From Stappia sediminis (GTDB lineage Bacteria; Pseudomonadota; Alphaproteobacteria; Rhizobiales; Stappiaceae), in assembly GCF_009826895.1 (NCBI RefSeq), contig NZ_WUMV01000003.1, positions 434,001 through 498,000 of the forward strand: a DNA stretch of 64,000 bases. Reading direction: 5' to 3'. The notes under the pieces were generated by a model, which was not told the DNA's origin, did no database searches, and saw only the letters and a program-made list of their open reading frames with translations. Numbering within the stretch: the stretch's first letter is position 1; the number at the start of each line of letters is the position of its first letter. Both the position numbers and the translations under genes were made by a program. Positions 57,880 through 62,146 of this stretch are shown in pieces.

Positions 57880-59361
57880 TTACGCGCCCGATGTGACGCG
57901 CGGTCGGAAGGCGACGGCCGTGAGATCGTCGAGGCGTGGCTCATTGCGCGCATAGTCGTTGAGCCGCTCTTCCAGGGCGTTCAGGATTTCCTCAAGGCTC
58001 TGCGTGGCGTGCGTTTCGATCAGCCTCATCGCCTGCCGATAACCGAAAGCGATGCGCTTTTTCCCGCCGATCTGGTCGGTCATGCCGTCGCTCATCAGAA
58101 AGAGGGTGGAGTTCGCGTCGACAGGGAATGTCCTTTCGGTGAAGCGGGGCGATTTCGGCGTGTCGGGATAGCCGAGGCTGATCTTGTCGCCCTTGATCCG
58201 CTCGACCTTTCCCTCCTTTAGAACAAGAAGGGAAAGCCGCGCGCCGGCGAAGGTCGCCTTTCCGGTGCCGGAATCGATCTGGCAGATCGCGGCGTCCATT
58301 CCGTCGTTCGATGAGGCTTCCTCGGTATCCTGGTTGAGGAGACCCCGTGTAAGGTCGCTCAGCATGGTCAGGATCGCGCCTGGGGTCAGGCTCTCGTTTT
58401 CGGTGAAGATGCGTTCGATCGTGGCGATGGCGAGCATCGTCATGAACCCGCCCGGAACGCCGTGGCCCGTGCAATCCAGGAGCGCCACGGTAGTGCGTTC
58501 CCCGCTGGAAAAGACCCAGTAGATGTCGCCGCCGACGAGGTCGCGCGGCTGCCAGAGCACGGCGGCCTCGCTGAAGGCCTCCGAAACCTGTTCCTGCGTG
58601 GGCAAGAGGCCCTGCTGGATGCGCGTGGCATAGGTCACGCTGTCCAATATGGCCTTGTGTGCTTCGCGGATTTCGCTCACCCGCTCGACCTCGCGGTCGA
58701 GCATCATGTTGTAGCTCGCGACCACCTTGCCGATTTCGTCTTCGGCGCGATAGTCGACCTTTTGCGGGTCGCCGAAGCGCTCGAACTTCTCGATTGCCCC
58801 CAGCATGAGCGAAAGCGGGCGATTGATGAACCAGAGGAAGGCGGCCACGCCCGCGAACGTCAGCGCAAGCCCGCCCGCGACACCGAGCGCCACCAGAACG
58901 AGGAATTCGTAGAGCAGATCCATCGCCAGCTTGTCGGGATCGATCCTGACGTGCATCCGCGCGTCCTTGCCGACGATGGGAAGGGGAACATCGAGCGTTC
59001 TGCCAAGCTTTTTGATGCGGGAGCAACCGACGACGGGCCATGATGCCGCCGGCGTGTCGGTGTTCGCGGTATAAAGATCGGCGCAGATGACATAGTAGAA
59101 AGCGGCGAAGACCGACAGCAATTCGCGCGCGTCCGCCGCCTCGCCCCTTTGCGCAAGCGCGGCGGCGGGACCTGCGACGCGGTTCGAAATCGTGGCGATT
59201 TCGGCCGCCACCTCGCCGGTCTGTTCCGCCTGCCGCTGCTGATAGTAGAAGGCGAGGATCAGCGTGTTCATCGCAACGCCAATCAGGATCGTCGCCAGGA
59301 TATACTTGAAGAATATCCGTCGGCGAACGAGCCCGGTGATACCGCCCCCCAGCGTCTTCAC
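57880..59361 (-). CDS. siaA: SiaA-like membrane PP2C/SpoIIE phosphatase with HAMP domain
   Basis: This 493-residue protein has membrane helices at about 18-40 and 151-178 enclosing a periplasmic domain of about 110 residues with Cys93 and Cys113. A HAMP domain follows (about 179-232), then a SpoIIE-type PP2C domain (about 250-485). Metal-binding acids are seen in DLVGGDIYWV, LLDCTGHGVPGG and SDGMTDQ. The domain order and its neighbours (SiaB- and SiaC-like proteins) match SiaA of Pseudomonas, which dephosphorylates SiaC. It follows a small secreted protein by six bases. Confidence 0.88.
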   Translation of the reverse strand: MKTLGGGITGLVRRRIFFKYILATILIGVAMNTLILAFYYQQRQAEQTGEVAAEIATISNRVAGPAAALAQRGEAADARELLSVFAAFYYVICADLYTANTDTPAASWPVVGCSRIKKLGRTLDVPLPIVGKDARMHVRIDPDKLAMDLLYEFLVLVALGVAGGLALTFAGVAAFLWFINRPLSLMLGAIEKFERFGDPQKVDYRAEDEIGKVVASYNMMLDREVERVSEIREAHKAILDSVTYATRIQQGLLPTQEQVSEAFSEAAVLWQPRDLVGGDIYWVFSSGERTTVALLDCTGHGVPGGFMTMLAIATIERIFTENESLTPGAILTMLSDLTRGLLNQDTEEASSNDGMDAAICQIDSGTGKATFAGARLSLLVLKEGKVERIKGDKISLGYPDTPKSPRFTERTFPVDANSTLFLMSDGMTDQIGGKKRIAFGYRQAMRLIETHATQSLEEILNALEERLNDYARNEPRLDDLTAVAFRPRVTSGA

Positions 59362-59367
59362 GAGACG

Positions 59368-59745
59368 CTACTTGCCGAGCTTGGAGATCGCGCCCTGGAC
59401 GGCCTGCCGATTGTCCAGGATCAGCTGGACGACCCTGTACTGGTCATCGATACGGCGCACGAGGAAATCGGCGTTGATCGTGTTGCCGGCGTCGTCGATC
59501 ATTTCCGAGCAGACGAAATAGTCGTCTCCCATCGTGACGATGAACGGGTGAACGTTTGCCGGAAAAACGGTCTTCAGTGCGCCTTCCTTTGTGTCGACGT
59601 AGCTGTATCCACCGTCAAGGAGGATTGATTCCGTAAATTGCAGCATGGCTGTCTGCAACTTAACCTGAAGTTCTGTGTTGAGTTCTTCTGATTTAGCAGG
59701 GGAAATCGCCAGCCAAGCGAAGACGAGAAGTGCGAGTATTTTCAT
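59368..59745 (-). CDS. Small secreted protein of the SiaABC-like locus
   Basis: This 125-residue protein has a signal peptide (about 1-19, MKILALLVFAWLAISPAKS). The mature part contains AMLQFTESILLDGGYSYVDTKEG, HPFIVTMGDDYFVCSEMIDDAG and YRVVQLILDNR. No family is recognised. It is the first gene of the unit that continues, six bases later, with the SiaA-like phosphatase, so a role as periplasmic ligand-binding partner of SiaA is plausible. That role is inference. It is divergent from siaB. Confidence 0.8.
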   Translation of the reverse strand: MKILALLVFAWLAISPAKSEELNTELQVKLQTAMLQFTESILLDGGYSYVDTKEGALKTVFPANVHPFIVTMGDDYFVCSEMIDDAGNTINADFLVRRIDDQYRVVQLILDNRQAVQGAISKLGK

Positions 59746-59874
59746 TTCTACGACCCTCGCGTCTTAGACTGTTTTTTATGCTATCATTTTCTTGCGAAGA
59801 CGGCGAGCCTGGATTTGACTGGCAAAGTGGATCCCAGTCCGTTCCTGCGCGAATGGCCGGCCCGGAGAAGGTGG
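59746..59874. promoter_or_regulatory. Divergent promoter region of the SiaABC-like locus
   Basis: This gap of about 130 bases, or 70 if siaB starts at the TTG at 59815, separates the secreted-protein/siaA unit from siaBC-cyclase. It contains the AT-rich stretch GTTTTTTATGCTATCATTTT at 59771-59790. Both units are probably started here. No clear -35/-10 pair can be fixed. Confidence 0.4.
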
Positions 59875-60441
59875 ATGCTTGCAAATGAACTTTACGGGCT
59901 GAAAAAGGATCTCCGCGAGCGCGGGATAGTCTTCGCCTATAGCGGCTATGTTACTGAAAACGTTCTGAGCGGCGTGGGCGACGCGCTGAAGAAGAAGCTT
60001 GCGATAGAGGATGCGGACACCAAGACGATCCGCAGCGTTTTCGCCGTTTTCGTCGAGCAGATGCAGAATATCATCCGCTACTCGGTGGAGCAGCTTCCCT
60101 CGCCCGACCTGCCGCCGTCGGCCGACCACCCGGCGGAGTTGCGCTACGGTATCCTGACGATCGGGCAGGAGGGGGCGGATTACGTCGTCCACGCCGGCAA
60201 TCTGGTGATGAAGTCCGACGTGCCGCGCATGCGCGAGCGGCTTTCAGCCATCCAGGCGATGAACCGCGAGCAGCTGAAATTCGCCTACAAGGAGCAACTT
60301 CGAAGCGGACCGGACGAACACAGCAAGGGTGCGGGCATCGGCTTTATCGAAATCGCGCGCCGGGCGTCGAGCCCGATCGAGTTCGATTTCATGGATATCG
60401 ACGGCAAGCTCGCTTTCTTCGCGTTGAAAGCCACGATCTGA
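59875..60441 (+). CDS. siaB: SiaB-family protein kinase (GHKL-like)
   Basis: The ATG at 59875, preceded by GGAGAAGG, gives 188 residues. A TTG at 59815 would give 208. The sequence matches SiaB: LYGLKKDLRERGIVFAYSGYVTENVLSGVGDALKKKL, the N-box-like VFVEQMQNIIRYS, and the glycine-rich KGAGIGFIEIARRAS before DFMDIDGKLAFFALKA. In Pseudomonas SiaB phosphorylates SiaC on a threonine. It is followed by the siaC-like gene within a few bases, in one operon. Confidence 0.88.
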   Translation: MLANELYGLKKDLRERGIVFAYSGYVTENVLSGVGDALKKKLAIEDADTKTIRSVFAVFVEQMQNIIRYSVEQLPSPDLPPSADHPAELRYGILTIGQEGADYVVHAGNLVMKSDVPRMRERLSAIQAMNREQLKFAYKEQLRSGPDEHSKGAGIGFIEIARRASSPIEFDFMDIDGKLAFFALKATI

Positions 60442-60452
60442 GCGGGGTGGAT

Positions 60453-60839
60453 ATGGAAAATCTCGAGATTCCCGCCACGACGCGCACGCCGGCTGTCGAA
60501 TTCGACTTTCGCAACAACCACCTGAGGATCAGCGGCGAATCCTATCCGGAGGACGTGACGAGTTTCTACAGCTCGCTCCTGGAAGCGCTCGACCGTTATC
60601 TCGACGGGCGCACCTCCGGGGCTTGCCGCTTCGATTTCGAACTTATCTATTTCAACAGCAGCAGCGCCAAGGCGATCATGATGCTGATGGAAAAGCTCGA
60701 CGAAGCGGCCGGTGCCGGCATGAGCGTCGACGTTCACTGGTTCTACGATCCGCAGGACGAGACGATGCACGAACTTGGAGAGGAGTTCGGCGAAGATCTG
60801 CAACACGCGGTTTTCCACCTCGAGAACATTTCACGCTGA
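60453..60839 (+). CDS. siaC: SiaC-like DUF1987 partner protein
   Basis: The ATG at 60453 gives 128 residues. A GTG at 60447 would add two. DUF1987 landmarks are TPAVEFDF, GESYPEDVTSFYSSLLEALDRYL and FELIYFNSSSAKAIMMLMEKLDEAA. In Pseudomonas SiaC the phosphorylated residue is Thr68, in a YxNTSS-type segment as I recall it. Here the equivalent segment reads YFNSSSAK, so Ser69 would be the acceptor. The unphosphorylated protein binds and activates a cyclase in the known system. It overlaps the cyclase start by one base (TGATG). Confidence 0.88.
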   Translation: MENLEIPATTRTPAVEFDFRNNHLRISGESYPEDVTSFYSSLLEALDRYLDGRTSGACRFDFELIYFNSSSAKAIMMLMEKLDEAAGAGMSVDVHWFYDPQDETMHELGEEFGEDLQHAVFHLENISR

Positions 60840-61888
60840 TGGCGACCACCGATCTGTTTGCCAGGGAGGAGAAGGTTATCGCGGCGGCGGAAAGGCTGCT
60901 GGCGGAAACCGCGCCTGCCGATGCAGAAGCCCGCGCGGCTTTCGAAAAGCTGCTTTCCGAATACCGCAAGCTTTTCAAGACGACCCGGCGCATGATGCGG
61001 CTGAGCGACCGCAACGAACTCGAGCTTAACGCCCTTGCGGAACAGCGCCAGAAAGCGGCTGACGAGATTTCACGCAAGAATCAGGAGCTGGAGGCGCTTT
61101 CGGCCAAGCTTTCCAAGTATCTTTCGCCGCAGGTCTATGGATCGATCTTCTCCGGACGGCAGGAGGTGAAGCTTGCGAGCCGGCGCGAAAAGCTGACGGT
61201 GCTTTTTTCCGACATCGCCGGCTTCACGGAGCTGACCGACAAAATGGAGTCGGAGGACCTCACCCTCCTTCTCAACCAGTATCTGACCGAGATGTCGCGG
61301 GTCGCGCTCGAATTCGGGGCGACGATCGACAAATATATCGGCGATGCGATCATGATCTTCTTCGGAGATCCGGAAACGCGCGGCGTGCGCGAGGATGCGC
61401 TTGCCTGCGTGAAAATGGCGATCGCCATGCAGGCGCGCCTGCAGGACCTGCAAGGCGAGTGGCACGACCAGGGCATACGCGAAGCGCTCGCCTGCCGGAT
61501 CGGCATCAACACCGGATATTGCACGGTCGGCAATTTCGGCAGCGAAGACCGGATGGACTATACGATCATCGGTGGGGCGGTGAACGTCGCCTCGCGCCTC
61601 GAGCACGAGGCAGGTGCAGGCGAGATCTATATTTCCTACGAAACCTACGCGCATATCCGCGACGAGGTTGAATGCGAGGAGGTCGGTTCGCTCCGCGTCA
61701 AGGGCGTGGCCTATCCCGTCGCCGTCTACAGAGTGATAGGCCTTGCGGGCGAGGCAGAACGATCCCGCCGGATCGTTGCCGACAGCCCCCATTTCCGCAT
61801 GCATCTGGAGCCTGAAAGAATGGGCCCGGACGAACGGGAGGAAAGTGCCGCACTCCTGCGCAGGGCGCTCGACGCGCTGGGCGGGTAA
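60839..61888 (+). CDS. Class III adenylate cyclase with N-terminal coiled coil
   Basis: The ATG at 60839, overlapping the siaC stop, gives 349 residues. An N-terminal helical, coiled-coil part (about 31-95) contains LLSEYRKLFKTTRRMMRLSDRNE, similar to the segment found before the GGDEF domain in SiaD-type proteins. The cyclase domain (about 115-300) has metal Asp125 and Asp169, adenine-selecting Lys165 and Thr242, and transition-state Asn249 and Arg253. All catalytic residues are present, so cAMP synthesis is expected. No membrane segment is seen. The tail after about 305 is charged and probably helical. Confidence 0.92.
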   Translation: MATTDLFAREEKVIAAAERLLAETAPADAEARAAFEKLLSEYRKLFKTTRRMMRLSDRNELELNALAEQRQKAADEISRKNQELEALSAKLSKYLSPQVYGSIFSGRQEVKLASRREKLTVLFSDIAGFTELTDKMESEDLTLLLNQYLTEMSRVALEFGATIDKYIGDAIMIFFGDPETRGVREDALACVKMAIAMQARLQDLQGEWHDQGIREALACRIGINTGYCTVGNFGSEDRMDYTIIGGAVNVASRLEHEAGAGEIYISYETYAHIRDEVECEEVGSLRVKGVAYPVAVYRVIGLAGEAERSRRIVADSPHFRMHLEPERMGPDEREESAALLRRALDALGG

Positions 61889-61953
61889 GAACAGGCGATA
61901 CTTGAACGATTGCTCCGTAACGTAAACCATCGCAAGCTGTCGGACTTCGGATG

Positions 61954-62122
61954 CTAGTGGAGCGAATTTGACATTTGAGTCCCGGTTGCAGCGATGCTCT
62001 CGCTCAAATGTCGAATTCAAAAGCTCCACTAGAAACAAATAGTTACATAGTGGTTTTAGAGCTTCCATCATTTGCAACCGAGATTGCGGCAGGGGGATGC
62101 AAGTGATGGAAGCAAACCACTA
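61954..62122. repeat. Palindromic mosaic element, 169 bp, two large hairpins
   Basis: Palindrome one has arms CTAGTGGAGC (61954-61963) and GCTCCACTAG (62023-62032). Inside it are the 16-base arms 61964-61979 and 62003-62018, with one mismatch. Palindrome two pairs TAGTGGTTT (62048-62056) with AAACCACTA (62114-62122), and GCTTCCATCA (62061-62070) with TGATGGAAGC (62104-62113). The sequence is AT-richer than its surroundings. It is of the rhizobial intergenic mosaic type and unlike the element at 37997. Confidence 0.8.
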
Positions 62123-62146
62123 GGAACGACATGCGGGGTGGTGGAG

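Follow-up and report, generated by a model that had tools for sequence, protein, structure and literature searches.

Adenylate cyclase in the place of SiaD

Which enzyme does a SiaABC phosphorylation switch control when the gene in the usual place of siaD encodes an adenylate cyclase? This question is raised by a locus of Stappia sediminis lying in a 64,000-nucleotide stretch of contig NZ_WUMV01000003.1 (positions 434,001 to 498,000; hereafter the window, to which all coordinates refer). In Pseudomonas aeruginosa, SiaB phosphorylates SiaC at Thr68 and SiaA dephosphorylates it; in its unphosphorylated form, SiaC activates the diguanylate cyclase SiaD by binding to the stalk helix of that enzyme (PMC8457831, PMC7278518). 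We found that the window very probably holds a SiaABC partner-switch module with a class III adenylate cyclase (AC) as its output in place of SiaD. Judging from the sequences, SiaC would dock on this cyclase by direct contact, as it does on SiaD, and we conclude that the output domain behind the dock has probably been exchanged. The switch and its predicted output are encoded as follows:

59875-60441, + strand: SiaB-family kinase gene (NF038262 and a match to structure 6kko)
60447-60839, + strand: siaC, gene of a STAS-like phosphoprotein (PF09345; matches to 6kko, 6kkp and 7e6g)
60657-60659, + strand: putative phospho-acceptor codon, SiaC Ser71 (aligned to P. aeruginosa Thr68)
60837-60841, + strand: TGATG, in which the siaC stop overlaps the cyclase start (from the sequence)
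60839-61888, + strand: class III AC gene, 349 amino acids, the output protein of the switch (Guanylate_cyc; CyaB 3r5g)
60851-61120, + strand: SiaC-docking module of the cyclase, residues 5-94 (hidden Markov model of GGDEF proteins only; genome dock search; predicted helices)
60980-61018, + strand: SiaC-contact motif TTRRMMRLSDRNE, cyclase residues 48-60, equivalent to SiaD 74-86 (contacts from PMC8457831; conservation in each output class)
61178-61741, + strand: class III catalytic domain, cyclase residues 114-301 (metal, adenine-specifying and transition-state residues)

The output protein matches Guanylate_cyc (PF00211, 1.7e-27) and lacks the GGDEF domain of SiaD. Its closest solved relative is P. 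aeruginosa CyaB (3r5g), which has the same catalytic domain and matches at residues 112-301 (E = 2.2e-70); the match is limited to that domain, the N-terminus of the window cyclase being the SiaC dock instead. The catalytic residues named in the initial annotation (D125, K165, D169, T242, N249 and R253) were found at those numbers and are invariant over 26 aligned relatives, giving the cyclase the two metal Asp, the Lys/Thr substrate pair and the Asn/Arg transition-state pair of class III enzymes. By analogy with these enzymes, its product should be cyclic AMP (cAMP). The genome (4.8 Mb) makes heavy use of cyclic nucleotides, with 38 PF00211 hits and 12 cyclic nucleotide-binding domains.

The probable SiaC-docking helix

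SiaC loci were gathered from the window's family, class and phylum. A hidden Markov model (HMM) built solely from the N-termini of GGDEF proteins adjoining siaC, and run over 4210 open reading frames, matched the N-terminus of the window cyclase at E = 1.3e-19, with the first unrelated reading frame at 0.49. The same HMM also matched the other SiaC-linked cyclases, histidine kinases and GAF-HD-GYP proteins. Within this region the cyclase motif RLSDRNE corresponds to RISDRYQ of P. aeruginosa SiaD, whose contacts with SiaC are R74, K77, V78, R80, I81, S82, D83, R84, Y85, Q86, M88, R90 and D91; SiaD has a further contact motif around S50/Q54 (PMC8457831, PMC7278518). When all docked outputs were aligned, the position of SiaD D83 was Asp in 100% of the proteins, in every output class, and those of S82 and R84 were Ser and Arg in 92% each. 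In ACs the positions of R80, S82, D83, R84 and Q86 are mostly R, S, D, R and E (R-x-S-D-R-N-E), and R54, S56, D57 and R58 of the window cyclase are the conserved SiaC-contact residues. The window cyclase has both the N-terminal stalk and the SiaC-contact motif of SiaD.

We also searched for the dock across genomes. In the whole window genome the dock profile gave one strong match, the window cyclase (E = 3.6e-28), followed by a match at 0.087; only one of the 38 class III cyclase hits of this genome carries the dock. Among the 87 genomes of the window's family it was present in 11/11 with SiaC and in 0/76 without, bar one weak match (3e-4). Among 387 genomes of the class it was present in 14/14 with SiaC, with four weak matches among the 373 others. 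The association between dock and SiaC was significant in both (Fisher: P = 4e-13 for the family and P = 2e-22 for the class), with the weak matches counted against it. The HMM match, the genome search and this co-occurrence take the N-terminal resemblance to SiaD-type proteins, which the initial annotation had pointed out, far beyond chance.

A search for SiaC-lacking counterexamples to the dock gave a sole convincing orphan, a histidine kinase (L261, genome G135) with the dock-like N-terminus KIAKISDGLQ, in whose genome no SiaC was detected. This protein, which is among the four weak matches of the class, looks like an orphan docked kinase, or else like one whose SiaC has been lost or is missing from the assembly.

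Could the helix be an ordinary dimerising signalling helix, to which the neighbouring SiaC does not bind? Coiled coils often precede class III cyclases and may score through their composition, and designed coiled coils were among the matches in the PDB. However, the restriction of the dock to one of the 38 class III cyclase hits of the genome, its co-occurrence with SiaC and position beside siaC, and its presence, with the D83 equivalent invariant, in unrelated output domains beside siaC all argue against this explanation, which we regard as very unlikely. Slightly less credible still is the idea that SiaABC targets a diguanylate cyclase encoded at another site of the genome, the adjoining cyclase being incidental. 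It has in its favour that SiaD is the known target in Pseudomonas, but the whole-genome search found no second dock at E < 0.05, the genome encodes a single SiaC, and many genera, from distant classes, share the gene order SiaB-SiaC-AC.

Linker phase and predicted interface

The AlphaFold2 (AF2) model of the window cyclase (pLDDT 83) has a short helix at residues 8-23 and then a continuous helix at 29-94, which ends at a short element preceding the catalytic domain. From the invariant Asp of the dock to the GGDEF domain there are 20, 27, 34 or 48 residues (42/42 congruent modulo 7), and to the AC domain 54, 61 or 68 (36/39 congruent modulo 7). The corresponding distances to the catalytic domain are 22, 36 or 43 in one histidine kinase group and 48 or 55 in the HD-GYP type. 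An unbroken coiled coil can keep its phase only if its length changes in steps of full heptads. Because the linkers are heptad-quantised and the modelled helix 29-94 is uninterrupted, SiaC binding at the dock is likely to act on the catalytic dimer via the coiled coil. The proposal of the initial annotation, that output domains were swapped behind a common SiaC-docking coiled coil, is supported by these linkers together with the GGDEF-only HMM, the restriction of the dock to a single cyclase of the genome, its co-occurrence with SiaC and the conserved contact positions.

Coevolution between SiaC and the dock was analysed over 130 pairs. The top pair joined SiaC E110 to the SiaD Q86 position, and 8/20 top pairs fell within the expected helices (naive binomial 0.0017, the pairs not being independent). 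We take this support for a SiaC-dock contact as suggestive only.

Several observations weigh against a SiaD-like contact and relay. SiaD Gln86 hydrogen-bonds the phospho-acceptor Thr68 of SiaC; its position is Glu60 in the window cyclase and Glu in 82% of ACs, and the local contact must therefore differ somewhat from that of SiaD. SiaC and SiaD form a 4:2 complex, with two motifs per SiaD chain, at S50/Q54 and S82/Q86 (PMC8457831), and the window cyclase has one such motif. The dock profile alone found SiaD in the PDB only at E = 0.024, behind designed coiled coils, and a phmmer search of the PDB with just the N-terminus of the cyclase missed SiaD; since this direct comparison is weak or null, the homology of the dock to SiaD is established via intermediate sequences. 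Three ACs of another catalytic group (L102, L127 and L130) have a spacing of 65, out of heptad phase, and the larger histidine kinase group has a spacing of 52 throughout, without the heptad phase of the others. Taken together, the contact pairs published from the crystal structure showed no enrichment in the coevolution scores: their mean rank was 0.38, against 0.31-0.57 for slid controls. Finally, an AF2 fusion of the SiaC and dock of L162, natural neighbours with the stop read through, gave pTM 0.66 and pLDDT 87.8, with the SiaC part at TM 0.94 to the SiaC of 7e6g, and was not used as contact evidence.

Kinase, switch protein and phosphatase

All four genes of the initial annotation (phosphatase, SiaB-family kinase, SiaC-like protein and cyclase) were found at their positions in two divergent units. 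A fifth gene of the locus had been overlooked and lies in the second unit with siaA:

57880-59361, - strand: SiaA-like phosphatase gene (SpoIIE, PP2C metal-site motifs and a sub-threshold HAMP)
59368-59745, - strand: gene of a small secreted-looking protein (signal-peptide-like N-terminus; 6 nucleotides upstream of siaA)
59746-59874, no strand: divergent intergenic region separating the two transcription units, a putative promoter region (sequence and gene layout)

SiaB matched DUF6272 (1.6e-42), NF038262 SiaB_fam_kinase (188.2 bits, above the subfamily cut-off of 85) and P. aeruginosa SiaB of structure 6kko (E = 2.3e-21). SiaC matched PF09345 (1.9e-39; 134.4 bits against a curated cut-off of 24.5) and the P. 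aeruginosa SiaC structures 6kko, 6kkp and 7e6g (E = 2e-21), with 96.9 bits against the P. aeruginosa SiaC equivalog NF038265 (cut-off 150). Its acceptor position, at the start of helix 2, is Ser71 in Y-F-N-S-S-S; this position is Ser or Thr in every paired locus, and Y65 and N67 are invariant over the paired loci.

The SiaA-like phosphatase has two putative membrane helices, a periplasmic segment, HAMP and a PP2C/SpoIIE domain. The initial annotation had called it a HAMP/PP2C phosphatase; the PP2C part stands (Pfam SpoIIE/PP2C, 3.4e-23), and the HAMP match is below the cut-off (0.0026). The metal-site motifs VGGDIYW, LDCTGHG, SDGMTD and DDLTAV are present; the metal-site residues of SiaA are D457, D474, G477, D600, G601 and D653 (PMC7647112). 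The match to SiaA (NF038263, 1.1e-59) is confined to residues 229-486 in the C-terminal half of the protein, the sensor part being different, and scores 202.7 bits against an equivalog cut-off of 700. It should be noted that all three Sia proteins of the window score under the P. aeruginosa equivalog cut-offs.

The small secreted-looking protein had no family match in Pfam or NCBIfam. In our survey it had 15 matches, all within AC-type loci, including the distant AC pair L046 and L051, and these share one invariant Cys and a YPANxHP-like motif. It is perhaps a periplasmic partner of the SiaA sensor.

Like SiaABCD of P. aeruginosa (6kko, 6kkp, 7e6g; PMC8457831, PMC7647112, PMC7278518), the window has a PP2C phosphatase, a SiaB-family kinase, a SiaC with a Ser/Thr acceptor and an output enzyme with a SiaC-contact helix, in the order siaB-siaC-output. 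Unlike that system, its output is a class III AC rather than a GGDEF protein, with one docking motif rather than two and Glu for Gln86; the acceptor position of SiaC is Ser rather than Thr; and siaA is divergent and accompanied by the small secreted-looking protein gene. HsbA-HsbD of P. aeruginosa and BgrV-BgrR of Sinorhizobium meliloti (both cited in PMC8457831) are alike in that a STAS-type phospho-switch protein controls a nucleotide cyclase, as we propose for the window, although their outputs are diguanylate cyclases.

Proposed working of the switch

By extension from P. aeruginosa, SiaB would phosphorylate SiaC at Ser71, and phosphorylated SiaC would be unable to bind. Activation of SiaA, probably with the small secreted protein in its sensor, would lead its PP2C domain to dephosphorylate SiaC. 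Free SiaC could then use its helices 2 and 3 to dock on the N-terminal helix of the cyclase, in the region of RLSDRNE. Docked SiaC would stabilise a parallel coiled-coil dimer, joining two catalytic domains, forming the active sites and raising cAMP. One docking motif per chain predicts a complex of two SiaC and two cyclase molecules.

Class III cyclases need dimers of their catalytic domains, as do diguanylate cyclases. The sign of control is not readable from the sequence, and both the dock and its conserved register are compatible with either sign. SiaC could dock on the cyclase yet inhibit it, holding the dimer in an unproductive phase, with phosphorylation by SiaB lifting the brake, and the enrichment of Glu for Gln86 in ACs would fit such an arrangement. 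We consider inhibition improbable, as the same motif mediates the activation of SiaD by SiaC and the need for a catalytic dimer is shared by both kinds of cyclase. By analogy with SiaD, we infer that SiaC activates rather than inhibits the cyclase.

Range of outputs and evolutionary history

A survey of DUF1987 neighbours, as proposed in the initial annotation, found both GGDEF and class III cyclase outputs and, in addition, histidine kinase and HD-GYP outputs. In a sample of 84 SiaC loci unbiased by the query, the docked outputs comprised 41 GGDEF, 10 AC, 6 histidine kinase, about 14 HD-GYP-like and 1 unclassified, and 13 loci had no dock within about 5 kb. A scan seeded with SiaC of AC loci gave as its closest matches L138-L157, all of them SiaC-AC loci, from Ruegeria, Microvirga, Azospirillum, Granulosicoccus, Methyloceanibacter (in whose record the dock is frameshifted), Geminicoccaceae and gammaproteobacterial genomes; the locus nearest to the window's is L138 of Hongsoonwoonella zoysiae. 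Lower-ranked matches came from Magnetococcales and Pseudodesulfovibrio. AC outputs recur across Alphaproteobacteria, Gammaproteobacteria, Magnetococcales and beyond.

In a tree of SiaB+SiaC (129 rows) the AC label required 11 changes, of which well-supported branches make at least 8 unavoidable; the total for all labels is 18. The trees were quick and have long branches, making these event counts approximate. Docked ACs have catalytic domains of at least three class III groups. The group found in L143, L146 and L155 (Granulosicoccus, Acidiferrobacterales) is sister to a cyclase of the window genome that lacks the dock, and in the same loci SiaB+SiaC and the gene layout group with the window's clade. 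In these loci the catalytic domain appears to have been replaced behind a retained dock.

In members of another genus of the window's own family (L028-L036), SiaABC has GGDEF outputs, and their SiaB+SiaC fall on a different branch of the tree. The AC version of the window is therefore not a simple local swap from family relatives.

In Magnetospirillum and relatives (L160, L167, L176, L186, L193, L215 and similar loci) the position of SiaD is taken by a docked histidine kinase, whose dock and H-box are always 52 residues apart. GAF-HD_5 (HD-GYP) type proteins with a SiaC dock were found in L086, L092, L111, L125 and L171, and the SiaC switch may control the breakdown of cyclic di-GMP (c-di-GMP) in Magnetococcales and others. 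Some loci pair a single SiaC with two docked outputs: an HD-GYP-sized protein and an AC in L183, an AC and a histidine kinase in L210 and L182, and a GGDEF protein and a histidine kinase in L038.

Four kinds of output, with predicted functions, were found behind the SiaC dock: c-di-GMP synthesis, GAF-HD-GYP proteins which would degrade c-di-GMP, cAMP synthesis and histidine-kinase phosphorelay. We think it likely that the docking helix is a portable input module, by which one Ser/Thr partner switch serves at least four kinds of output at a fixed coiled-coil phase, with outputs exchanged many times and some loci having two docked outputs per SiaC. SiaC looks like a detachable regulatory subunit which can be plugged into different enzymes. 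In the open-access literature searched, SiaABC is known only as a regulator of c-di-GMP in Pseudomonas, and we found neither SiaC-linked adenylate cyclases nor the other docked outputs described there, although subscription journals or the original EMBO J paper may mention them. The role of SiaC-family (DUF1987) proteins elsewhere was left open by the authors of the SiaC structure, as was the reason for a diguanylate cyclase to depend on a separate partner protein; a dock shared by four kinds of output bears on both questions. In an alphaproteobacterial genome with dozens of cyclases, the dock predicts which one a partner switch controls, and its motif could assign targets to hundreds of SiaC loci. 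The docked outputs are also natural chimeras with which to study the activation of unrelated catalytic domains by a single coiled-coil input.

Gene starts and a downstream repeat

The start of the cyclase gene was corrected to the ATG at 60839, which overlaps the stop of siaC, and the TGATG overlap makes translational coupling of the two genes likely. For siaB, an in-frame TTG at 59815 would extend the protein by 20 amino acids; the ATG at 59875 is the more likely start, because the ortholog from the same genus (L037) is 20 amino acids shorter. Downstream of the cyclase gene, at about 61953-62124, lies a repeat of ~170 bp with two hairpins. The genome contains eight matches to this repeat (71-100% identity), which looks like a small miniature transposable element or a REP-like element.

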